Positions 21,605 through 64,000 of a stretch of 64,000 nt of DNA are shown here, in pieces. A program made the position numbers and the translations under genes. The notes under the pieces were generated by a model. That model made no database searches and was not told where the DNA came from. It saw only the letters and a list, made by a program, of their open reading frames with translations. Location: contig NZ_JAKVRD010000003.1 of NCBI RefSeq assembly GCF_022814865.1, positions 32,001 to 96,000 on the forward strand. Direction: 5' to 3'. Positions within the stretch are counted from its first letter, which is position 1. Each line of letters begins with the position of its first letter. Source of the stretch: Shimia aestuarii (GTDB lineage Bacteria; Pseudomonadota; Alphaproteobacteria; Rhodobacterales; Rhodobacteraceae).

Positions 21605-22064
21605 CCGAACAACCGCTCCCCGAGCCTCTCGTTGCAAGCAAACCGCACCCCTCGGCGCGAAAGCCCTCGTTTGCCATGATTTGGAGCACAGCGAAACCGA
21701 AAACAAGCAGGACTTGATTCCCGCGAAGTGACGCCGCGTCGCTTGACCAAAAGATCAGGTTTTCATACCTATTTTTGGGTAGGAGCGGAAAACACCTCAC
21801 ACGAACGTGATACCGTGCAAGAACACCCCCGCACCCTTTACTAGCAAGCCATTGCTTTTACTTTGTTTTCTTAACATTTTCACAAGTCTTTACAAAGCAC
21901 CCTTTACAAATGGAAATGTTTTTACAAAAACTTCCTTTCCTTTTCGGCACTTATTTCAAAATTTTCAGTCTTGGGTATGATCTGCGCAACTCCGGATAAC
22001 CGCATTTTTCCGGCAGTCCGGCTGTTCACCACAGCATTCTTTTTGAAATGAGGGAGGAACCTCG
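21605..22064. promoter_or_regulatory. Divergent dusA/acsA control region with three TTTACAAA boxes
   Basis: This 460-base region is markedly AT-rich compared with its surroundings and holds no credible gene. Three direct copies of TTTACAAA lie at 21889-21896, 21903-21910 and 21921-21928. A possible promoter for acsA is TTTCAA (21954-21959) with TATGAT (21976-21981). The same octamer recurs beside the ScfR-type regulator gene at 62.6 kb. RamB/ScfR regulators are known to bind TTTGCAAA-like motifs, so these boxes are probable ScfR sites (inference). Confidence 0.6.
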
Positions 22065-24029
22065 ATGTCGTCTGACGCAACCGCAAACCCCACCTATCCG
22101 CCGTCGAAAGAGCTCGCCGCATCTGCCCATATCGACGCCGCGAAATATGAGGAGATGTACGCGGCCTCGATCAATGATCCGGAAGGTTTTTGGGCCGAGC
22201 ACGGCAAGCGGGTCGACTGGATCAAGCCCTTCACGAAGGTCAAGAACACCTCCTTCACCCCGGGCAACATCGACATCAAATGGTTTGAAGACGGCACGCT
22301 GAACGTCGCCGCCAACTGCGTCGACCGTCACCTCGCCACCCGCGGCGACCAGACCGCCATCATTTTTGAGCCCGATGATCCCAACGAAGCGGCCCAGCAC
22401 ATCACCTACAAGCAGCTGCACGTGTCGGTCTGCAAGATGGCCAACATCCTCGAAGATCTCGGCGTGCGCAAAGGCGACCGCGTTGTCATCTACCTGCCGA
22501 TGATCCCTGAAGCAGCCTACGCAATGCTGGCCTGTGCCCGCATCGGCGCGATCCACTCGATCGTTTTCGCAGGCTTCAGCCCGGACGCGCTCTCGGCCCG
22601 CATCAACGGCTCTGACGCAAAAGTTGTCATCACCGCCGACACCGCACCGCGCGGGGGCCGCAAAACCGCGCTCAAGTCGAACTGCGACGCGGCGCTGCTG
22701 CACTGCAAAGACACGGTGAAATGCCTCGTGGTCAAGCGCACCGGCGACCAGACCACTTGGATCGATGGCCGTGACTATGACTACAATGAAATGGCGCTCG
22801 AGGCGGACGAGTATTCCAAGCCCGCCGAGATGAATGCCGAAGATCCGCTCTTCATCCTCTACACCTCTGGCTCCACAGGTCAGCCGAAGGGTGTTGTGCA
22901 TTGCTCGGGCGGCTACCTTGTCTTCGCCTCGATGACCCACGAATACACGTTCGACTACAAAGACGGCGACATCTTCTGGTGTACCGCGGACGTGGGTTGG
23001 GTCACCGGCCACTCCTATATCGTCTACGGCCCGCTCGCCAATGGCGCGACCACCGTCATGTTCGAAGGCGTGCCGACCTACCCGGACGCCTCGCGCTTCT
23101 GGCAGGTCTGCGAAAAGCACAAGGTGAATCAATTCTACACCGCGCCGACCGCGATCCGCGCCCTGATGGGTCAGGGCAACGAGTATGTCGAAAAATGCGA
23201 TCTCTCTGACCTGCGCATCCTCGGCACCGTGGGCGAGCCGATCAACCCGGAAGCCTGGAACTGGTACAATGACGTTGTCGGCAAAGGGAAATGCCCCATC
23301 GTCGACACCTGGTGGCAGACCGAAACCGGCGGTCACATGATGACCCCGCTGCCGGGCGCCCACGCGACCAAACCCGGCTCGGCCATGAAACCCTTCTTCG
23401 GCGTCAAACCTGTCGTCCTCGACCCGCATTCCGGCGAGGAAATCGACAGCTACCCGACCGAGGGCGTGCTCTGCATCGCCGATAGCTGGCCTTCGCAGAT
23501 GCGCACCGTTTGGGGCGACCACGAGCGTTTCGAGAAGACCTACTTCTCCGACTACAAAGGCTACTACTTCGCAGGTGACGGCTGCCGTCGCGACGAAGAT
23601 GGCGACTACTGGATCACCGGCCGCGTCGATGACGTCATCAACGTGTCCGGCCACCGTATGGGCACCGCCGAGGTCGAAAGCGCCCTCGTCGCCCACGCAC
23701 AGGTCGCCGAAGCCGCCGTTGTCGGCTACCCGCACGACATCAAGGGCCAAGGCATCTATTGCTACGTCACCCTGATGAACGGCGTCGAACCTTCCGATGA
23801 ACTCTACAAGGAACTGCGCACCTGGGTCCGCACCGAGATCGGTCCGATCGCATCGCCCGACCTCATCCAATGGGCTCCCGGCCTGCCGAAGACCCGTTCG
23901 GGCAAGATCATGCGCCGTATCCTGCGCAAGATCGCCGAGAACGACTACGGCTCGCTCGGCGACACCTCGACGCTCGCCGATCCTTCGGTGGTCGATGACC
24001 TCATCGAAAACCGCATGAACAAAGGGTAA
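22065..24029 (+). CDS. acsA: Acetyl-CoA synthetase
   Basis: This 654-residue AMP-forming enzyme makes acetyl-CoA from acetate, ATP and CoA. Motifs are [11 protein letters not shown] (adenylate P-loop, near residue 265), [22 protein letters not shown], and RSGKIMRR with K614, the lysine whose acetylation silences Acs in other bacteria. GGGAGGA precedes the ATG. It is followed after eight bases by adk, which would recycle the AMP it releases. Upstream lie three TTTACAAA boxes, pointing to control by a short-chain acyl-CoA regulator. Confidence 0.97.
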
Positions 24030-25247: not shown

Positions 25248-27035
25248 ATGGATCAGTTTACTATCAACCTGCTGTTTGTTGGCGCGTCCTTTGCGCTCTA
25301 CATCGGCATCGCGATCTGGGCCCGCGCGGGTTCCACATCGGAATTCTACGCTGCAGGTCGCGGCGTTCACCCCGTCACCAACGGTATGGCAACCGCCGCC
25401 GACTGGATGTCGGCAGCATCGTTCATCTCGATGGCAGGTCTCATCGCCTTCACCGGCTATGACAACTCCTCCTTCCTGATGGGCTGGACCGGCGGCTACG
25501 TGCTTCTCGCCCTGCTTCTCGCGCCCTACCTGCGCAAGTTCGGCAAGTTCACCGTGTCGGAATTCATCGGCGACCGTTTCTATAGCCAGACCGCCCGCAT
25601 CGTGGCCGTGGTCTGCCTTATCGTCGCCTCGACCACCTACGTGATCGGTCAGATGACCGGTGTTGGCGTGGCCTTCGGTCGCTTCCTCGAAGTGGACAAC
25701 ACCACCGGCCTCCTCATCGGCGCCTGTGTTGTGTTTGCTTACGCGGTGTTCGGCGGCATGAAGGGTGTGACCTACACCCAGGTGGCCCAGTATGTCGTGC
25801 TCATCATGGCCTACACCATCCCGGCGATCTTTATCTCGCTGCAACTGACGGGCAACCCGATCCCGGCCCTCGGCCTGTTCGGTGACCACGCAGCATCGGG
25901 CGAGCCGCTTCTGGCGAAACTCGACGCGATCGTGACCGAGCTCGGCTTCAACGAGTATACCGCGCATCACGCCGATACCTTCAACATGGTGCTCTTCACC
26001 CTGTCGCTGATGATCGGTACCGCAGGTCTGCCGCACGTCATCATGCGCTTCTTCACCGTCCCGCGCGTCGCAGACGCTCGTTGGTCGGCAGGTTGGGCAC
26101 TGGTGTTCATCGCGCTTCTGTACCTCACCGCGCCTGCTGTAGGTGCCATGGCACGCCTGAACATCTCTGAACAGTTCTGGCCGAACGGCGCCTCGGGCGA
26201 ACCGGTCTCTTCGGAAACCATCGCCAACGATGCCGCCTATGACTGGATGCAGACCTGGCAGCAGACTGGCCTTCTCGGCTGGGAAGACAAGAACGGCGAC
26301 GGCAAGATTGCGTATTTCAACGACAAAGACGCAGACACCGTGGCCAAGATGGAAGCGGCCGGCTGGGGCTCTGAGAACGAGCTGACCAACTTCAACCGTG
26401 ACATCCTCGTTCTGGCCAACCCCGAAATCGCCAACCTGCCGGGTTGGGTGATCGGTCTGGTCGCAGCCGGTGGTCTCGCCGCAGCCCTCTCGACCGCAGC
26501 AGGCCTTCTGCTCGCGATCTCCTCGGCTGTGTCGCACGACCTCATCAAAGGCGCCATCAACCCGGGTATCTCGGAAAAAGGCGAACTGATGTCGGCACGT
26601 GTTGCGATGGCTGTTGCGATTGCCGTGGCAACCTATCTCGGCCTTAACCCTCCGGGCTTCGCCGCGCAAACCGTGGCTCTCGCCTTCGGTCTGGCCGCTG
26701 CGTCGATCTTCCCGGCGCTGATGATGGGTATCTTCTCGACCAAGATCAACAACACCGGCGCAGTCGCTGGTATGCTGGCCGGTCTGGTTGTGACCCTCAT
26801 CTACATCTTCCTGCACAAAGGCTGGTTCTTCGTACCGGGCACCAACTCCTTCACGGATGCGGACCCGCTGCTGGGCACCGTCAAGTCGACCTCGTTCGGC
26901 GCCATCGGGGCCGCGGTGAACTTCACCGTTGCCTATCTCGTGGCGAACGCAACGAAAGAGACCCCGCAGGAGATCAAGGATCTCGTCGAAAGCGTCCGCG
27001 TGCCGAAAGGTGCAGGCGCCGCGCAGGATCACTAA
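25248..27035 (+). CDS. Sodium:solute symporter, VC_2705 subfamily (acetate-type)
   Basis: This is a 595-residue SLC5-type symporter with about 13 helices. It carries AADWMSAASFISMAGLIAFT near the N-terminus and TTYVIGQMTGVGVAF. A large hydrophilic insert at about residues 320-390, containing a DKNGDGKI sequence that resembles an EF-hand loop, is characteristic of the VC_2705 (TIGR03648) group. The group is close to ActP acetate permeases, and the position behind acsA-adk supports acetate or another short monocarboxylate as substrate (inference). A strong terminator follows. Confidence 0.9.
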   Translation: MDQFTINLLFVGASFALYIGIAIWARAGSTSEFYAAGRGVHPVTNGMATAADWMSAASFISMAGLIAFTGYDNSSFLMGWTGGYVLLALLLAPYLRKFGKFTVSEFIGDRFYSQTARIVAVVCLIVASTTYVIGQMTGVGVAFGRFLEVDNTTGLLIGACVVFAYAVFGGMKGVTYTQVAQYVVLIMAYTIPAIFISLQLTGNPIPALGLFGDHAASGEPLLAKLDAIVTELGFNEYTAHHADTFNMVLFTLSLMIGTAGLPHVIMRFFTVPRVADARWSAGWALVFIALLYLTAPAVGAMARLNISEQFWPNGASGEPVSSETIANDAAYDWMQTWQQTGLLGWEDKNGDGKIAYFNDKDADTVAKMEAAGWGSENELTNFNRDILVLANPEIANLPGWVIGLVAAGGLAAALSTAAGLLLAISSAVSHDLIKGAINPGISEKGELMSARVAMAVAIAVATYLGLNPPGFAAQTVALAFGLAAASIFPALMMGIFSTKINNTGAVAGMLAGLVVTLIYIFLHKGWFFVPGTNSFTDADPLLGTVKSTSFGAIGAAVNFTVAYLVANATKETPQEIKDLVESVRVPKGAGAAQDH

Positions 27036-27086
27036 GATGGTCTCGATGGGCCGCCCCTTGCGACGGCCCGTCCTCTTCTAATCTGG

Positions 27087-27118
27087 TCCTGCCCGGTGCA
27101 TATCGGGCAGGACTTTTT
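27087..27118 (+). terminator. Terminator after the symporter gene
   Basis: TCCTGCCCG (27087-27095) pairs with CGGGCAGGA (27104-27112) around an eight-base loop and is followed by CTTTTTCTTT. It lies 52 bases beyond the symporter stop, so the downstream DUF294 gene may depend on readthrough or on its own promoter. Confidence 0.85.
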
Positions 27119-27144
27119 CTTTATCGCTTGCAAGGCTGATTTCC

Positions 27145-28971
27145 ATGCCGCTCACCCAAGACCAGATCATTCGCTTTCTGAAATCCGTGCACCCCTATGA
27201 CGCGCTCGCGCCGGGCGTTGTCGAAGACCTCGTCCCGCTCTTCGAGGCCTGGGAGGTCGAACAGGGCTTTTCCGTCTATGACCTTGGCGACAAGCTCCCC
27301 GGCCTGTTCCTCGTCTATGAGGGTCAGATCGAGGTGCGCGATGAGAACGACGTGGTGGTCTCGCATCTTGGTGTCCGCAATTCCTTTGGTGAACGTGGCC
27401 TGCTGCGCGACGGCACCGCCGCGACAAGCGCCCGCGCCGAGGCACATTCCATCGTCCTCGTGCTGCCGCCAATTCCTTTCTACAAGCTGGTCGAAGATCA
27501 CGAGGTGGCGCGCAAGTTCTTTGATCGCACCCGTGTCGAGAAGCCCCGCGGCAACGACCTCGCGACGAGCCGCGTCGAAACGCTCATGGCCCATAGCCCC
27601 GTCACCTGCGCCGCCGATGCCAGCGCACAGGACGCCGCCATCCTCATGCGCGACAAACGCATCTCGTCAGTCTGTATCTGTGACGAATCCGGCGCGCTCG
27701 AAGGCATCCTCACGACCCGCGATCTCTCGGGCAAGGTGTTGGCCAATGCCCTGCCCGTCGCGACCCCGGTCTCCGAGATCATGACCCCGAACCCCGTCAC
27801 CCTCGCCCCCTCTGCCATTGGCTCGGATGTGCTGCACGTGATGATGGAACGGCGCATCTCGCATATCCCCATCGTCGAGAACGCCAAGCTCGTCGGCATG
27901 GTGACACAGACCGACCTCACCCGCTTTCAAGCGGTATCCTCTGCCGAACTGGTCTCCGAAATCGCTCAGGCCAACACGCCCGAGGAGATGGCCAAGGTCA
28001 CGGCCCGCATTCCGAAACTTCTCGTACAGCTTGTTGCGGGCGGCAATCGCCACGAAGTCGTCACCCGGCTCATCACCGATATCGCCGACACTGCAACGCG
28101 CCGCCTTTTGGCCCTTGCAGAGGCGAAACTCGGCCCCGCGCCCGCACCGTACCTCTGGCTCGCCTGCGGCTCCCAAGGGCGCCAGGAACAGACCGGCGTC
28201 TCGGATCAGGACAACTGCCTCTTCCTGCATGACTCGGTGACCGAGGCCGACATGCCCTATTTCCGCGACCTCGCGGCCTTCGTCTGCGACGGCCTGAACA
28301 CCTGCGGCTATGTCTATTGCCCCGGCGATATGATGGCCACCAACCCGCGCTGGTGCCAGCCGCTGAAAGTCTGGCAGAGCTATTTCGAGGGCTGGATCAA
28401 CAAGCCCGATCCAGAGGCACAGATGCTCGCCTCGGTGATGTTCGATCTGCGCCCCATCGGAGGCCACACCCACCTGTTCCAAGACCTGCAGGAAGACACC
28501 CTACGCAAAGCGGCCAAGAATTCGATCTTCGTCGCCCATATGGTCTCCAACTCTCTCAAGCACACACCGCCGCTCGGCCTTCTGCGCGGCTTTGCGACGA
28601 TCCGCTCGGGCGAGCACAAGAACCAACTCGATATGAAACACAACGGCGTCGTGCCAATCGTCGATCTTGCCCGCATCTACACGCTTCAGGGCGAGCTCAC
28701 GGCAATCAACACCCGCGCCCGGCTCGAGGCCGCCGAACATGCGGGCGTGCTGAGCGCCTCCGGTGCGCGCGACCTGATCGACGCCTATGACCTGATTGCC
28801 GAAACCCGGCTTCAGCATCAGGCAAATCTCGTCAAACGGGGCGACTCCCCGGACAACTATCTGCTGCCGTCTGATCTGTCGGACTTCGAACGCAGCCACC
28901 TGCGCGACGCCTTTGTCGTCGTCAAAACCCTACAATCCGCCATCGGCCACGGCCGGGGCATGTTAAGCTAA
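27145..28971 (+). CDS. cNMP-binding / CBS pair / DUF294 nucleotidyltransferase-like protein
   Basis: This is a 608-residue cytoplasmic protein. Domains in order are a cyclic-nucleotide-binding fold (about 15-125), two CBS domains (about 147-270), a DUF294 nucleotidyltransferase-like domain with ACGSQGRQEQTGVSDQDN (about 340-360; the GS...D-x-D pattern as in GlnD) and a DUF294 C-terminal domain (about 470-605). Such proteins repeatedly accompany DUF4212/SSS symporters and DnaQ-like exonucleases, suggesting a sensory or modifying role, but the reaction is not known. Confidence 0.85.
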   Translation: MPLTQDQIIRFLKSVHPYDALAPGVVEDLVPLFEAWEVEQGFSVYDLGDKLPGLFLVYEGQIEVRDENDVVVSHLGVRNSFGERGLLRDGTAATSARAEAHSIVLVLPPIPFYKLVEDHEVARKFFDRTRVEKPRGNDLATSRVETLMAHSPVTCAADASAQDAAILMRDKRISSVCICDESGALEGILTTRDLSGKVLANALPVATPVSEIMTPNPVTLAPSAIGSDVLHVMMERRISHIPIVENAKLVGMVTQTDLTRFQAVSSAELVSEIAQANTPEEMAKVTARIPKLLVQLVAGGNRHEVVTRLITDIADTATRRLLALAEAKLGPAPAPYLWLACGSQGRQEQTGVSDQDNCLFLHDSVTEADMPYFRDLAAFVCDGLNTCGYVYCPGDMMATNPRWCQPLKVWQSYFEGWINKPDPEAQMLASVMFDLRPIGGHTHLFQDLQEDTLRKAAKNSIFVAHMVSNSLKHTPPLGLLRGFATIRSGEHKNQLDMKHNGVVPIVDLARIYTLQGELTAINTRARLEAAEHAGVLSASGARDLIDAYDLIAETRLQHQANLVKRGDSPDNYLLPSDLSDFERSHLRDAFVVVKTLQSAIGHGRGMLS

Positions 28972-57631: not shown

Positions 57632-60322
57632 TCATTGCGCGGCCATTGCGCTTGATGCTGGCAGGATCACACGAAACGCCGCACCGCCCTGTCCCGGCAG
57701 ATAGCTGACCGATCCGCCAAGCCGCGCCATGATCTCGCGACAGATCGCCAGCCCAAGCCCCGCCCCGCCGGCACGCATCGCGCCAACGCGGGCGAATTTC
57801 TCGAAGATCACCGCTTGATCGTTCTTCGATATCCCCGACCCGTTGTCGATGAAATCAATCAAAATGGTGTCATCACGATGGGTCACCCGAAGCACGAGTT
57901 CGGGCACCTCCGCGTCGCAATATTTGCGCGCGTTCGAGATGAGATTGATAAACACCTGACTAAGCCGGTCGAGATCCGTGCTAAGCAGCACCGTTTCCTG
58001 CGCCGTGTCGCGGCTGATCTTTAGGCCCTCTTGCCCGCTTCCCGTCAGCGCCGAGGCAATCGCATGGTCAAGAACCCGCGAGAGCTGTCCTTGCTGGATA
58101 TTGAGGTTCACCTGACCGTTTTCCAACACGCTGAGGTCAAGAAGATCATCCAAAAGCCGCGTCAAGCGCAGCGCTTCATCATGGATGATCGAGGCGTATT
58201 TGACTTGCTCCGTCTCGCTAAGCTTTTCGCTGTCCCGCAGGATTTCCGAAAACGCCCGGATCGATGTCATCGGCGTGCGCAATTCATGACTCACCTGACT
58301 GAGGAAGGCGTCTTTCTGAACCGAAATCTGCTGTAGCTTCTCGTTGGCCTGCCGCAATTGCCGCGCCGTGCGCGCCTGCTCTTCGGATTTCGCCTCAAGA
58401 CGGTTGGAGTATTCCATCATCTGCGCCGTCTCATCCGCCACCGCTAGCAGGTCTTCCACCGAGACAGAGGCGCCGCCGACAATCTGCCCGATCATCGCAT
58501 GCGCCGTTGCCGTGCCGACCGAGCCGGACAACGCGCGTTCCAGCGCCTGTAGGAAATCCGGCGTGGTGTCCGGGAGATAGCCGCTCACACCCTGCCGCCG
58601 CGCTTCGCTCTCAAACAGGGCCTGCGCCTCGCGCGCCCCAAGGATACGCTGCGACATGATCATCAGGTCTTCGCTCTGCGCCGCATTCCCGCTCCAGCTT
58701 TGCGGGGTTGAGCTATGTTCATAGACGTTGACGAATTGCGCGCCCTGCAAACGCTCAAGCGGCGTCGGGAAGCCGAGCATGGAAGCAAGCACAAAGCTCA
58801 ACCCGTTGAGAGAGATAGACCACAGGATCGCGTGCACCATCGGGTCGATCCCCTCGATCCCGAATAGCGCCTGTGGACGCAGCCAGGACCAACCGAACAA
58901 CCCCTCCTGCATAATCTGTGTCGGCATGAGCACATCCGGGCCGAAACTCGGCAGAAGCAGGCAATAGACCCAGACCACAAAGCCAACGCTCAGCCCCGTG
59001 AACGCGCCAACCCGCGTTGCCCCGCGCCAGAACACACCGCCAAGAAGCACCGGCAGAAACTGCGCCACCCCGGCAAAGGAGACAAGCCCGATCGAGGCCA
59101 GCGCCGCGCCGCCGCCGGAAAAGCGGAAGTAGAGATAGCCAAGCACCACAACCCCTGCGATCGAGAACCGCCGCGCCATGATAACCACGTTGCGCACGTC
59201 GCCCGACACCATCGCACCGCTGCCCGTCAACGAGAGCCAGATCGGCATAACGATATGGTTCGAAACCATCGTCGAAAGCGCCAAGGCCGCGACGATGACC
59301 ATGGAGGTTGCCGAAGAAAACCCACCAATAAAGGAAAGCATCGCAAGCCCCTCCTTCCCCATGGCCAAAGGCAAGGTCAGGACAAAAAGGTCCGGGTTCG
59401 ACCCTTCCGGCAACAGGTCGAGCCCGGTGACGGCAATCGGCACCACAAACAGGCTCATCACCATGAGATAGGCAGGAAAGGCCCAGGACGCGGTGCGCAG
59501 ATGGCCCTCGTCATCATTCTCGACCACCATGACCTGGAACATCCGCGGCAGGCAGAGGAAGGCCGCCGCCGACAGGAAGATAAGAGACGCCCAGCGATCA
59601 CCCCGCATCTGCCAATGTCCGATCTCTGACGCATCAATGCGCGCCATCATTTCACCGACACCCCCGACAACGCCCCAGACGACGAAGGCCCCGACGCACA
59701 ATAGCGCGAATAGCTTCACAATCGCTTCGACCGCAATGGCGATCACGACCCCATGGTGGCGTTCATTGACATCAAGGTTGCGCGTCCCGAACAGGATCGT
59801 GAAAAGCGCCAGACCCATCGCCACGAGAAGCGCCGTGGAATCCATATCGGCCAGCGCGCCATTGCTCTCGGAGGCATCGGCAAACACCGAGAAACTGAGG
59901 GTCACGGACTGAAGCTGCAACGCGATATAGGGCGTCGTGCCGATCACGGCGAGCACCGTGACTCCGATCGCCAACAGGTTCGATTTGCCATAGCGCGACG
60001 AAATCAAGTCGGCGATGGAGGTGACGCGCTGCGTGCGTCCGATCCGCACCAGTTTTCGCAGGCACCACCACCAGCCGATCATCACAAGCGTCGGACCGAT
60101 ATAGATGGTCAGGTATTCCATCCCCGAACGCGCCGCATACCCAACCGCGCCATAAAACGTCCAAGCGGTGCAATAGATCGAAAGGGAGAGCGTGTAGACC
60201 AACGGCGATCGCAACCAGCCGCCCTGTCCCTGCCGCGCCGCGCGCTCGGCACCAAAGGCCACCGCGAACAGGAAAGTCACGTAAACAAGGCAAACCGCGA
60301 CAAGGATATTCATTGTCGCCAT
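57632..60322 (-). CDS. Sensor histidine kinase with sodium/solute symporter input domain (CrbS-like)
   Basis: This is an 896-residue membrane protein. Residues 1-500 form an SLC5/SSS transporter-like domain of about 13 helices. A linker and coiled coil (about 600-665) lead to the kinase. The phosphoacceptor His679 lies in SQVSHELRTPMTSIRAF, the N-box in FINLISNARKY, and the ATP lid in DNGSGIS and GLGLAICREI. CrbS of Vibrio with this architecture controls the acetate switch through acs; this homologue lacks a C-terminal receiver, which is supplied by the separate gene at 60.6 kb. The ligand is unknown. Confidence 0.9.
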   Translation of the reverse strand: MATMNILVAVCLVYVTFLFAVAFGAERAARQGQGGWLRSPLVYTLSLSIYCTAWTFYGAVGYAARSGMEYLTIYIGPTLVMIGWWWCLRKLVRIGRTQRVTSIADLISSRYGKSNLLAIGVTVLAVIGTTPYIALQLQSVTLSFSVFADASESNGALADMDSTALLVAMGLALFTILFGTRNLDVNERHHGVVIAIAVEAIVKLFALLCVGAFVVWGVVGGVGEMMARIDASEIGHWQMRGDRWASLIFLSAAAFLCLPRMFQVMVVENDDEGHLRTASWAFPAYLMVMSLFVVPIAVTGLDLLPEGSNPDLFVLTLPLAMGKEGLAMLSFIGGFSSATSMVIVAALALSTMVSNHIVMPIWLSLTGSGAMVSGDVRNVVIMARRFSIAGVVVLGYLYFRFSGGGAALASIGLVSFAGVAQFLPVLLGGVFWRGATRVGAFTGLSVGFVVWVYCLLLPSFGPDVLMPTQIMQEGLFGWSWLRPQALFGIEGIDPMVHAILWSISLNGLSFVLASMLGFPTPLERLQGAQFVNVYEHSSTPQSWSGNAAQSEDLMIMSQRILGAREAQALFESEARRQGVSGYLPDTTPDFLQALERALSGSVGTATAHAMIGQIVGGASVSVEDLLAVADETAQMMEYSNRLEAKSEEQARTARQLRQANEKLQQISVQKDAFLSQVSHELRTPMTSIRAFSEILRDSEKLSETEQVKYASIIHDEALRLTRLLDDLLDLSVLENGQVNLNIQQGQLSRVLDHAIASALTGSGQEGLKISRDTAQETVLLSTDLDRLSQVFINLISNARKYCDAEVPELVLRVTHRDDTILIDFIDNGSGISKNDQAVIFEKFARVGAMRAGGAGLGLAICREIMARLGGSVSYLPGQGGAAFRVILPASSAMAAQ

Positions 60323-60328
60323 GGCGGC

Positions 60329-60595
60329 CTACCCGTCCTTGCGCTCAAGATCGAGCCCCGAGCGACGCAGGAAAAGCGACACAACCGCACTCACCAAGAC
60401 CATGAAGAACCAGACCCCGAATATATAGATGATGGCTTCGGAAGTGGTCACCGAACTGTCCGGCCCACTTGGCCAGAGCAGCGGCACAGCCCAAAGCAGG
60501 CCGCCAATCAAGGGAAGGATGCGCAGAAAATCAACAAGGCGACGGCCACGATAGCCCTGCCGCTCGAGGAAGAGAGGAGAGCGTCCTTCGCTCAC
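60329..60595 (-). CDS. Small two-helix membrane protein of the sensor operon
   Basis: This is an 88-residue protein with a basic N-tail (ERQGYRGRRLVDFL), two helices (about 24-42 and 52-76) and a charged C-tail. Its ATG overlaps the response regulator stop (ATGA) and it ends six bases before the sensor kinase. Size and topology copy the DUF4212 small subunit in front of the symporter at 25 kb, although the sequences are not alike. It may be an accessory subunit of the sensor. Confidence 0.8.
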   Translation of the reverse strand: MSEGRSPLFLERQGYRGRRLVDFLRILPLIGGLLWAVPLLWPSGPDSSVTTSEAIIYIFGVWFFMVLVSAVVSLFLRRSGLDLERKDG

Positions 60596-60960
60596 GTCTC
60601 GACCAACTCGCGCACCGCCTCCAGCATCTCTGCATTCGAGAACGGTTTGGTCATAAAGCGATTGACCCCGGCCTTTTCGGCCATCTCACGATCCTTGAGC
60701 TGTCCCCGCGCCGTCAGCATCATCACCGGCAAGTCCCCCGGCCCGAGCTTTTCGCGCAGCATTCGCAGGATATCGAGCCCGCTTTTGCCCGGTAACATCA
60801 CATCAAGGATGAGTAGGTCCGGCGGCGCGCCTAGCACGACATCGACCGCGTCATGTCCATTGGAATGGGTGGCCACGGCCCAGCCATCCCGCGAAAGAAT
60901 GAAACTGATGGCCTCAATGATATTCGGCTCGTCTTCAATAAGAAGAACCCTTTTGCCCAT
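60592..60960 (-). CDS. Single-domain response regulator (CheY-like)
   Basis: This 122-residue protein is a receiver domain only. The acidic pair lies in IEDEP (residues 9-12), phosphoacceptor D53 in LILDVMLPG, T83 in MLTAR and K105 in MTKPF. No DNA-binding output domain is present. ATG 60960 follows GGGAGGG. It is first in the operon with the small membrane protein and the SSS-type kinase, so it is the likely phosphorylation partner. Confidence 0.93.
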   Translation of the reverse strand: MGKRVLLIEDEPNIIEAISFILSRDGWAVATHSNGHDAVDVVLGAPPDLLILDVMLPGKSGLDILRMLREKLGPGDLPVMMLTARGQLKDREMAEKAGVNRFMTKPFSNAEMLEAVRELVET

Positions 60961-61316
60961 ACCGCTTGCCCTCCCCGACACGCGCTGTGCGTCTTATGTA
61001 GTCTGGCGATCTTATGCACAGGGCCCGTTAATGTCCACGCCTCAGTTCCGCAGCTCTCGCAGCTCACAAGGCACATGGGCGCAGGAATAGTGGTTCTATT
61101 TCAAAGCCATGCAACGACGTATGGCGCGAACCCCGCGAAACCCGAAGGGGCGAGCGGAAGGCTCGGCCTCAACTGCGTGCTTTTCCTGTCATACCACCCG
61201 GCCGTGACCGTGCAAAGCAATCCCCTGATCTCGCGCCGTTTTCGGCGTTGAGGCGTGGCCATCCCAAAGGCCCCGCGCCTGTTGGTCCTGGTAGAAAAAA
61301 GCAGGCCAAACCACAA
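60961..61316. other. 356-base intergenic region between the sensor operon and the ScfR gene
   Basis: No gene is supported. Short open frames here lack ribosome sites and similarity. A weak CGCCG-TTTT-CGGCG hairpin lies at 61234-61247. The promoter of the response regulator operon should lie at the left end. Confidence 0.5.
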
Positions 61317-62633
61317 TCAGAGACCCTGTATGAGGATCGAAGGCTCCCGGCGCCCTTCGCAATCGACGCTCGGGCAGACCCGACAGCTCGACCCAACCTC
61401 GCGCGCCTGCGCGACCGCGCGTTCCATCGGCACCACCAACATATAAGAATGATAGAGCGGATCTTCGTTGAACGCGGCCGTGCCGATGGCCTCTGTCACG
61501 GCAAAACATTCAAACGGTCGCGCCTCGCGCCCGGTGACCGTGACCTCCTGCCGAATGGGGCGCAACGGACGGTTCAACGCTTGGAAAAGCGGCCATTTCG
61601 GACAGGCGGCACTAAACCGCGGCACCGGAAAACCCTCGACCGGCTTGCGCAGCATCAAGGTGCCGGACCCATCACACATCACAAGCCCAAGAGACTGCGG
61701 CAAGAGCGTGTCCGACAAAATCGCGAGCCGCCGGAAGACGGTGGCCATCGACACCCGGAAATGCTGCATGATCTGCGTGAACTCCATGCCGTGCTGCTCA
61801 AGCACGCCCGACAATTCGTCCCGCGGCATCACCCGCGCATCGGCCCGCAACTGACGCAGCGCCGCCAAGGCGAGATCGCGCGCGCCCTGCGAGGTCAGCT
61901 GCGGCTGCTCTGCGATAAAGGCCTCGAGGTCAAGCTGCGCCTCCGCGTCCGCCTCTTCGAACTGCGGAAAGTGATAGCGGTGCGCCGCAAGCATCGCCTC
62001 AACCTCTTCCATCGGTGAGGTGAGGCTCGCCCCCACGTCCCCGGCTCCGTCGAGGTATGACACAAGCTGCTGGGTGCTCTCGGCAAGACGGCGACTGTCC
62101 TCGTTGAGGTTGCGCTGAAACCGCTTCTCCCATTCGGGTTCGATTTCCTGCGTTTCGGCAAGGATCGACGCGGTTGACCGGATTGCCGTCACCATCGTCA
62201 GAACCTCATGCATCGAGGTCGCAAGATGAGGGTCATGCGTAAGCCGGTCGGTCAGCGTCGCCGCCACCCGCTCCAGCGAAGCAATCCGCCGATGGTTCTC
62301 GACCACCAACTCCGCCCAGCCCGGAAACCGCCCCGCGAATTCGTCGATCCGGTCAAGCTCGGGCTGCGCGCGCCCCGTGCCCGCTGCCGCCTCACGCAGC
62401 GTCGCGATCATCGCCGCTTCCGCGCCTTCGCTGAGCAAAGAAGGCTCGACACCCAATACCTGCGCAATATCTACAAGGAGTTTGCCGCCGATTCTGCGCC
62501 GGTTGTGCTCGATCAGGTTGAGGTAGGACGCCGAGATCCCGACCTCCCGCGCCAGTTCCGATTGACGCATTCCCGACATCGCGCGGCGCTCGCGGATACG
62601 GCTTCCGGTCAAGGTGTCACGAGCCAAGGGCAT
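61317..62633 (-). CDS. ScfR-family transcriptional regulator (XRE, short-chain fatty acyl-CoA sensing)
   Basis: This is a 438-residue protein. An N-terminal XRE helix-turn-helix (SELAREVGISASYLNLIEHN, about 25-44) is followed by a large ligand domain and a C-terminal cysteine cluster (CRVCPSVDCEG), the RamB/PccR/ScfR layout. PccR of Rhodobacter sphaeroides governs propionyl-CoA assimilation and RamB of Corynebacterium governs acetate genes. It is divergent from a binding protein gene, and the shared region has TTTACAAA boxes also found before acsA, suggesting autoregulation and control of acetate use. Confidence 0.92.
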   Translation of the reverse strand: MPLARDTLTGSRIRERRAMSGMRQSELAREVGISASYLNLIEHNRRRIGGKLLVDIAQVLGVEPSLLSEGAEAAMIATLREAAAGTGRAQPELDRIDEFAGRFPGWAELVVENHRRIASLERVAATLTDRLTHDPHLATSMHEVLTMVTAIRSTASILAETQEIEPEWEKRFQRNLNEDSRRLAESTQQLVSYLDGAGDVGASLTSPMEEVEAMLAAHRYHFPQFEEADAEAQLDLEAFIAEQPQLTSQGARDLALAALRQLRADARVMPRDELSGVLEQHGMEFTQIMQHFRVSMATVFRRLAILSDTLLPQSLGLVMCDGSGTLMLRKPVEGFPVPRFSAACPKWPLFQALNRPLRPIRQEVTVTGREARPFECFAVTEAIGTAAFNEDPLYHSYMLVVPMERAVAQAREVGSSCRVCPSVDCEGRREPSILIQGL

Positions 62634-62844
62634 TTCTCCGTTATTTCAACAGCTTTCCGCAACGCAGAATAATTTCTTTACAATGCATACCATGGTATTG
62701 TGGATTACTTTACAAAAAAATTGTTGCTTTGAAAGCAGTTGTTGCGAAATTTTCCATCCCTCCCTGATAATGACTTTGCACATCTGTGCGTTTGGCCTGC
62801 GGAAGAGGAGCCGCGTGCCAAGATTTACAAAATGGGAGGATTAC
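62634..62844. promoter_or_regulatory. Divergent control region with TTTACAAA boxes and a palindrome
   Basis: TTTACAAA occurs at 62709-62716 and again at 62824-62831, just before the ribosome site of the binding protein gene. A near copy, TTTACAAT, is at 62677-62684. Between the first two is the perfect 12-base palindrome ATACCATGGTAT (62687-62698). A possible rightward promoter is TTGCGA (62742-62747) with GATAAT (62766-62771). The octamers match those before acsA. Confidence 0.6.
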
Positions 62845-64000
62845 ATGTCCAAAACCACTATGACACGTCGCGGCGTGCTCAAGACCGGTGCCGTTGCTGA
62901 CGCGGGTGTTGCGCTGCCGACCATCTTCACCGCCAGCTCGGCGGCTGCCTATACCAACGAACCGACCGGCTCGACCGTGAAATTCGGCTTCAACGTGCCC
63001 CAGACCGGCCCCTATGCCGACGAAGGCATGGACGAGCTGCGCGCTCAGGAGCTCGCCATCGAGCACATCAACGGCATGGGTGACGGCGGCGCGCTGAACA
63101 CCTTCAGCTCCAAGGCTCTTGGCGGCGACGGTGTTCTCGGCAAGAAGGTCGAGTTCGTCACCGGCGACACGCAGACGAAATCGGACGCAGCCCGCGCATC
63201 GGCCAAGTCGATGATCGAAAAAGACGGCGTCGTGATGATCAACGGCGGTTCGTCCTCGGGCGTGGCCGTGGCTGTTCAGGGTCTCTGCCAAGAGGCAGGC
63301 ATCATCTTCATGGCTGGCCTGACCCACTCCAACGACACCACCGGTAAGGACCGCAAGGCCAACGGTTTCCGTCACTTCTTCAACGCCTACATGTCCGCTG
63401 CCGCTCTGGCACCGGTGCTGGCGAAAGAATACGGCAAGGACCGTCGCGCCTATCACCTGACCGCCGACTACACCTGGGGCTGGACCCAGCAGGAGTCGAT
63501 CGCGGCCGCAACCGAAGCCATGGGCTGGGAAACCGTCAACAACGTGCTGACCCCGCTCGCCGCAACCGACTTCTCGTCCTACATCGCCCCGGTTCTGAAC
63601 TCCGGCGCGGACGTGCTGGTTCTGAACCACTACGGCGGCAACATGGTCAACTCGCTCACCAACGCGATTCAGTTCGGCCTGCGTGACAAGATGGTCAACG
63701 GCAAACAGTTCGAGATCGTCGTTCCGCTCTACTCCGAGCTGATGGCGGCTGGTGCCGGTGAGAACATCAAAGGCGTTTACGGTTCGATGAACTGGAACTG
63801 GCAGCTTCAGGACGAAGGCACCAAGGCATTCGTGCAGTCCTTCGGCAAGAAGTATGGCCGTCCGCCGTCCAACTCGGCTCAGACCTGCTATGCCCAGACC
63901 CTGCTCTATGCAGACGCCGTGGCACGCGCCGGTTCGTTCAACCCCTGCGCCGTCGCAGAAGCCCTCGAAGGCTTCGAATTCGATGGTCTCGGCAACGGTC
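62845..64000 (+). CDS. ABC transporter substrate-binding protein, branched-chain amino acid type (3' end cut)
   Basis: The gene starts at ATG 62845 behind GGGAGGA and runs off the right edge, showing 385 residues. The N-terminus MTRRGVLKTG followed by a hydrophobic stretch ending in SSAAA looks like a Tat signal. The mature part has the type I periplasmic binding fold: VKFGFNVPQTGPYADEGMDE, NGGSSSGVAVAVQGLC and TADYTWGWTQQESI. Members import amino acids, amides, urea or carboxylates. Position opposite an ScfR gene with shared boxes suggests a carboxylate or a carbon source yielding acyl-CoA (inference). Confidence 0.88.
   Translation, partial: MSKTTMTRRGVLKTGAVADAGVALPTIFTASSAAAYTNEPTGSTVKFGFNVPQTGPYADEGMDELRAQELAIEHINGMGDGGALNTFSSKALGGDGVLGKKVEFVTGDTQTKSDAARASAKSMIEKDGVVMINGGSSSGVAVAVQGLCQEAGIIFMAGLTHSNDTTGKDRKANGFRHFFNAYMSAAALAPVLAKEYGKDRRAYHLTADYTWGWTQQESIAAATEAMGWETVNNVLTPLAATDFSSYIAPVLNSGADVLVLNHYGGNMVNSLTNAIQFGLRDKMVNGKQFEIVVPLYSELMAAGAGENIKGVYGSMNWNWQLQDEGTKAFVQSFGKKYGRPPSNSAQTCYAQTLLYADAVARAGSFNPCAVAEALEGFEFDGLGNG

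Follow-up and report, generated by a model that had tools for sequence, protein, structure and literature searches.

Between algae and marine bacteria, acetate serves as a common currency. How might a member of the Rhodobacteraceae control the gene for its acetyl-CoA synthetase, acs? One family of regulators to consider is ScfR, to which PccR of Rhodobacter sphaeroides belongs.

Several described systems bear on this question. The class-2 operator of RamB in Paracoccus denitrificans consists of two 14-bp boxes with an 18-bp spacer between them, a period of 32 bp (PMC10370305); we read the boxes off the differences between wild-type and mutant probes in Table 3 of that paper, according to which both boxes are needed for reporter activity and mutation of a box abolishes binding. 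The same paper names Pden_1785, an ScfR-network protein of P. denitrificans that is encoded with a two-component system. The site of PrpR in Mycobacterium tuberculosis is made of TTTGCAAA and TTTGCgAA with 1 bp between them (PMC6765138). Both Pseudomonas and Vibrio keep acs under the control of the CrbS/CrbR pair (PMC5715377, PMC8402216); the targets of CrbR in P. fluorescens are acs, actP, pflu0110 and pflu5625, and its known site is an inverted repeat (PMC5715377). RpuR of Sinorhizobium, a LuxR-type regulator, depends on an imperfect direct repeat between -80 and -43 (PMC9100948).

Boxes before acsA

The window, by which we mean the whole 64,000-nucleotide stretch of Shimia aestuarii DNA that was analysed, carries acsA on its forward strand at 22065-24029 (Pfam AMP-binding, AMP-binding_C and ACAS_N). 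This is the one strong acs match in the genome, and it lies 41 kb from the window's ScfR gene. An earlier note on this DNA had seen three direct copies of TTTACAAA in front of acsA, and these are real: they lie on the forward strand at 21889-21896, 21903-21910 and 21921-21928, with start-to-start spacings of 14 and 18 bp. Outside the acsA region the window holds two more copies, at 62709 and 62824, and the total of 5 compares with 0.35 +/- 0.56 in dinucleotide shuffles, 0 of 100 of which reached five or more. The note had called such an octamer rare by chance, which holds within the window but not across the genome, where there are 36 copies as against 28 of the reversed octamer; alone, it is not rare. 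The note had also been ready to give up its reading of the boxes if the octamer were frequent and random, and this turns out to be true of the single octamer and untrue of the pair, which has 2 exact sites in the genome.

It is the pair that deserves attention. The pattern TTTACAAW-N24-TTTACAAW is found without mismatch at two places in 3,972,025 bases, one of them before acsA (21889-21928) and the other at 62677-62716; the next-best matches number five, each with 2 mismatches, and three of these overlap the acsA site itself. At up to 3 mismatches the genome has 27 matches and the reversed control 20, so the weak matches are mostly background. A pair with a gap of 3-13 bp occurs in the acsA region and nowhere else.

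Which of the three copies matter? Box 1 (21889-21896) and box 2 (21921-21928), both exact and on the forward strand, start 32 bp apart, and the end of box 2 lies 137 bp upstream of the acsA coding match. The middle copy (21903-21910, forward strand) is poorly kept across acs promoters, recurring at up to 1 mismatch in 4 of 66 that bear the pair at up to 3 mismatches, the window's own included, and is probably incidental. The note had treated all three boxes as one unit. Each copy is indeed exact, but what relatives conserve is a unit of two direct boxes with a spacing of 31-32 bp, and the 14/18-bp triple is ruled out as a functional unit by its unconserved middle. Comparison with relatives leaves the first and third copies of TTTACAAA, 32 bp apart, as what appears to be the functional unit.

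We also considered a PrpR-type site with TTTGC(A/G)AA boxes such as TTTGCAAA, and rejected it: both window sites carry TTTACAAA or TTTACAAT boxes. Exact TTTGCAAA is absent from the 450 bp before acs in all 81 genes scanned. Among tested sites it is the class-2 RamB operator that comes nearest, with TGACAAA and TGACAAT boxes that likewise lie 32 bp apart (PMC10370305).

Conservation of the pair

We scanned 149 genomes of the family for the exact pair, allowing a gap of N23-24 and using the reversed pattern as control. There are 33 sites, in 30 of the 149 genomes, against 2 for the control. Placed by coordinates, 22 lie before an ScfR gene and 6 before acs, with 5 left unassigned; one of those five proves to precede a truncated ScfR gene and another an acs gene that is broken off at the end of its contig, and the final tally is 23 before an ScfR gene, 7 before acs, 1 between an ScfR gene and an aceA-like gene, and 2 elsewhere. 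These last 2 precede an RraA-like and a serA-like gene, named by reading with no family search, which have no known link to acetate. The aceA-like case, at 2461-2500 of locus L207 in genome G061, is an exact TTTACAAA pair between a RamB-like ScfR gene, a different one (27% identical), and an apparent isocitrate lyase gene; from this placement, the same two-box operator may serve aceA too in that genome.

For the region before acs we took the best 80 of a larger number of named relatives, 65 with a stand-alone acs gene and 15 with acs linked to an ABC-transporter operon. The best pair has at most 2, 3 or 4 mismatches in 41, 53 and 60 of these 65 stand-alone genes, and in 0.1%, 0.9% and 7% of upstream regions shuffled in 50-bp blocks, which keep the local AT content. 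Among the 15 linked genes none has the pair, even at 4 mismatches, and the difference at up to 3 mismatches (53/65 versus 0/15) gives a Fisher value of 2.6e-9, inflated by common descent. From 30 further acs loci we dropped 7 duplicates and 1 truncated locus; of the remainder, 13 of 17 stand-alone genes (the window's own included) and 0 of 5 linked genes have the pair at up to 3 mismatches. More than 4 mismatches are seen in 7 of the 82 distinct stand-alone upstream regions (65 + 17).

Direction and spacing of the pair are fixed in acs promoters. Across the 80 named acs loci, 46 pairs with at most 2 mismatches were counted on the sense strand in the 330 bp upstream of acs, and none on either strand in the rest of the 777,574 bp, a result that was repeated without the prefilter. 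Exact octamers in the 65 stand-alone promoters number 45 in sense and 1 in antisense, and the boxes are spaced by 31 bp in 19 of these promoters, by 32 bp in 13 and by 33 bp in 5, with every other spacing in at most 4. Might the octamer simply be common in AT-rich upstream DNA, and the whole pattern an effect of chance? The single octamer, hardly enriched genome-wide (36 versus 28), would allow it, but a reading that must set shuffles at 0.1% against 41 of 65 promoters (up to 2 mismatches), and 2 control sites against 33 exact ones, all in DNA where the sites are strand-biased and spacing-specific, strikes us as scarcely credible.

The second site and its neighbours

The other exact site, at 62677-62716, separates the gene of the ScfR-type regulator from a divergent ABC-transporter operon. 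Its box 1 is TTTACAAT (62677-62684) and its box 2 is TTTACAAA (62709-62716), both on the forward strand and both exact in the genome scan for the pair; box 2 ends 129 bp before the ATG of the binding-protein gene. The copies that had been reported here, at 62709 and 62824, are present, and the TTTACAAT partner at 62677 was missing from that list. The copy at 62824-62831 (forward strand), which overlaps the binding-protein gene's ribosome-binding region, is probably incidental; we reject it as a regulatory site, found as it is in 1 of 28 loci examined, the window's own. The pair, at up to 3 mismatches, is present in 28 of 30 ScfR loci, the window's own included, and its spacing is 32 bp in 27 of the 28 ScfR/ABC promoters that bear it. 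Neither at L103 nor at L112 does a good pair accompany the ScfR gene (8 and 5 mismatches, respectively), and both loci lack an adjoining binding-protein gene.

The operon starts on the forward strand with the periplasmic binding protein at 62845 and continues past the end of the window at 64000. Read at locus L200, it encodes a Peripla_BP_6 protein, two BPD_transp_2 permeases and two ABC ATPases (Pfam), is of the urea/branched-chain type, and is possibly an uptake system for a short-chain acid. In relatives this operon (62845-64000; L200 6845-12082) often ends with acs. Just 3' of its -10-like element, at 62775-62789, lies an inverted repeat, TTTGCACA-N3-GTGC, which is kept in the 27-sequence profile of ScfR/ABC promoters and may be a second operator; it has a single copy in the window and is therefore not before acsA.

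Promoter anatomy

We built profiles from acs promoters with 31-bp (n = 45) and 32-bp (n = 21) spacing and from ScfR/ABC promoters (n = 27). The acs and ScfR/ABC profiles share box 1, box 2, a downstream TTATT...TTTTC block whose start lies about 31 bp beyond that of box 2, and, further on, a TA-rich position that resembles a -10 element. Before acsA, the block lies at 21950-21968 on the forward strand, and by these profiles it may hold a degenerate third box, ATTTCAAA (21953-21960), which pairs with box 2 in a 2-mismatch match, 32 bp downstream of it. The TATGAT at 21976-21981 (forward strand), at the TA-rich position kept in the acs profile, is a possible -10 element, and taking it as such would centre the boxes near -64 and -96. 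A scan of 21605-22070 found no consensus sigma-70 promoter, which is compatible with an activator-dependent acsA promoter and is no proof of one.

The likely binder

The ScfR-family protein encoded at 61317-62633 on the reverse strand is the likely binder. It has the architecture of its family, with an N-terminal HTH_3 at 46.3 bits (cut-off 23) and a C-terminal ScfRs at 38.9 bits (cut-off 24), the latter a partial match over 14-141 of 157; residues 233-378 match the PrpR structure 6cyy (E = 1e-7), and the C-terminal cysteines C344, C417, C420 and C425 are invariant in 29 sequences. The earlier note had spoken of RamB/ScfR-family regulators. At 114.8 bits against the NCBI RamB cut-off of 700, the protein is not a RamB, and the gene does not lie beside glyoxylate-cycle genes as a class-2 RamB gene does; its neighbours are a receiver, a small protein, a kinase and the ABC operon. 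Judged by its sequence, the protein is a distinct ScfR subgroup.

The sites have the form of an ScfR-type operator, two near-identical direct boxes with kept spacing, 31-32 bp at acs and 32 bp at 27 of 28 ScfR/ABC promoters. The HTH segment GISASYLNLIEHNRR is common to the window's ScfR and to the G061 ScfR, and the G061 gene, too, has the exact pair in front of it. It is because of this shared HTH segment, together with the 32-bp period of the RamB operator, that we read the acsA element as a probable operator of the local ScfR.

An ScfRs domain is carried by two proteins of the genome, the local one and a second on contig C8, and similar sites do occur among family members. Could the boxes belong to the second protein, or to both? 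We think this quite improbable: the HTH segment of the second ScfR, GVSLPYLNQMENNNRP, differs from that of the local one, GISASYLNLIEHNRRR; the TTTACAAA pair stands before the local gene and not before the second; and the second protein has, about 2.4 kb from its ScfRs domain, a pair of TTTGCAAA type. That pair, TTTGCAAA-N24-ATTGCAAA, again with a 32-bp period, lies at 1501-1540 of locus L121 (C8:47305-47344), and is perhaps the operator of the second ScfR.

Co-occurrence of the operator and ScfR

We scored ScfR as present at E <= 1e-40, in genomes that are partly incomplete and of which those without a match may differ in other ways, and obtained 128 matches in 126 of 149 genomes. An acs gene lies within 15 kb of ScfR in 55 of the 128, always on the opposite strand, and in 54 of the 55 at 5.4 to 6.0 kb; this count used 145 of 147 acs matches, and it is unaffected by the two left out (the G068 match and the second G139 match), since both are in genomes with no ScfR found. 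In all four linked loci that we read (L201, L202, L203 and L210), acs follows the second ATPase gene.

We then set aside the acs genes behind the ABC operon. Genomes with an ScfR match have 73 others, all of which were used; genomes scored negative gave 19 usable acs matches, from 18 of 23 genomes, 4 genomes having no acs match and 1 match being cut by a contig end. The pair, at up to 3 mismatches, precedes 53 of the 73 and 1 of the 19 (Fisher 8.1e-8, a value overstated by common descent and by genomes with two acs copies); at up to 4 mismatches the counts are 58 of 73 and 2 of 19. All such Fisher values overstate independence, because the genomes are related by descent. There are 20 of the 73 genes without a pair at up to 3 mismatches, and one gene, at L229, with a pair in a genome where no ScfR was found.

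What would explain the division between linked and stand-alone genes? In many relatives acs closes the ABC operon and would need no operator of its own there, and a stand-alone acs, like that of the window, carries its own copy. Among the 20 genes without a pair is that of genome G011 (L278), where 214 bp separate acs from the ScfR gene that it directly faces and this intergenic region has no recognisable two-box pair.

The linked kinase and receiver

Beside the ScfR gene, on the same reverse strand, the window encodes a receiver-only response regulator of 129 aa (60592-60981; Pfam Response_reg only), an 88-aa protein, by reading probably a membrane protein, with no Pfam family (60329-60595), and a membrane histidine kinase, probably of SLC5/STAC type (57632-60322; HisKA, HATPase_c). 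Receiver, small protein and kinase accompany ScfR on its strand in 30 of 30 loci, a set made up of the best ScfR matches and counting that of the window, and the binding-protein gene lies opposite in 28 of the 30. The N-terminus of the kinase has no Pfam match, and it is homologous to the N-terminal part of 10ed, a histidine kinase of solved structure (E = 5e-66); profile comparison with a symporter is weak (28% probability), and an SLC5/STAC type as in CrbS is weakly supported. The linkage of kinase, receiver and ScfR suggests what might be an acetate-type switch wired to ScfR.

Could the pair, then, be the operator of some other regulator, for example a LuxR-type homologue of CrbR acting on acs, the ABC operon and the ScfR gene, with ScfR merely one of its targets? 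Pseudomonas and Vibrio do place acs under CrbS/CrbR (PMC5715377), RpuR of Sinorhizobium needs an imperfect direct repeat (PMC9100948), and the genome has 12 LuxR-type (GerE) DNA-binding domains from which to choose. We nonetheless consider the idea unlikely. The CrbR site is known as an inverted repeat (PMC5715377); a degenerate CrbR pattern has 3 matches in the window, each with 3 mismatches, against 5.7 in shuffles, and the match nearest acsA (21507) is inside the neighbouring gene. The receiver linked to the kinase has no DNA-binding domain, and no other kinase of the genome matches this one over the whole length, three matching in the kinase domain alone. Finally, the 32-bp two-box form is that of an ScfR protein, RamB (PMC10370305).

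A CrbS/CrbR-type LuxR response regulator was looked for at the locus, where the linked regulator is the receiver-only protein of 129 aa. The CrbR/ACTU imperfect inverted repeat, as a pattern that we built from printed sites, was not found before acsA at up to 3 mismatches. Downstream of acsA, at 25248-28971, are genes for a VC_2705-type sodium/solute symporter and a DUF294/CBS/cNMP protein, which recall the CrbR regulon of Pseudomonas.

Discussion

We have tried to say what one short element before one gene might be for. We are fairly confident that the element before acsA serves the local ScfR as an operator, through which the protein probably activates acs and the transporter. In the mechanism that we propose, the operator would be two direct TTTACAAA boxes, 32 bp or three helical turns apart, reading toward the gene that they serve; an ScfR oligomer would sit on both boxes, on one face of the helix and upstream of the promoter, and would switch on acsA and the transporter operon upon an acyl-CoA signal or one from the kinase. 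We infer activation rather than repression, and autoregulation of the ScfR gene is likely. The earlier note had suggested that the local ScfR may work on acsA by way of the boxes, and comparative genomics supports that core well; what had to change are the details, namely the unit, the type of box and the naming of RamB.

A wider reading, which we offer as a tentative one and would not bet on, is that many Rhodobacteraceae have a newly wired acetate switch, in which a membrane sensor kinase (probably SLC5/STAC) and a receiver-only protein feed an acyl-CoA-sensing ScfR, whose 32-bp two-box operators control acs and a dedicated ABC system for acid uptake. If it is true, one regulatory unit would read both an outside signal and the internal pool of acyl-CoA, a task for which Pseudomonas uses a LuxR-type regulator.

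How much of this is new? The protein family and the general form of the operator are already known. We found no literature description of this operator, of ScfR control of acs in the Rhodobacteraceae, or of any other way in which that family controls acs, in a search that ran without most subscription journals and supplements, and the available portions of PMC12632250 and PMC5343134 do not mention an operator for acs control; that search likewise gave no description of the target set, the letters of the boxes, the division of acs genes into stand-alone and linked ones, or the association with the kinase. For the control of acs, the analysis puts forward a defined operator together with its likely regulator, lists a handful of targets, and points to a kinase and a transporter that go with them. 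It also offers an operator that is present when its target gene stands alone and absent when that gene sits in a regulated operon.

How, finally, does this locus compare with the systems with which we began? RamB of P. denitrificans is close: it too is an ScfR-family regulator of acetate metabolism, with near-identical direct boxes, a 32-bp period and a TKACAAW core. Its operator serves a glyoxylate-cycle operon, whereas the window's sites would serve acs and an ABC operon, and its boxes read TGACAAA/TGACAAT where the window has TTTACAAA. Pden_1785 is perhaps the orthologue of the window's ScfR; a search of 394 genomes with the P. denitrificans RamB probe gave no match, and our genome sample therefore probably does not include that species. 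PrpR shares the ScfR family and a structural match (E = 1e-7) with the window's regulator and differs in its TTTGCAAA-type site, as against TTTACAAA. With CrbS/CrbR the likeness is that acs is a target of a system with a membrane kinase, and the difference lies in the output, which there is a LuxR-type regulator on an inverted repeat, and in the window a receiver-only protein and an ScfR.
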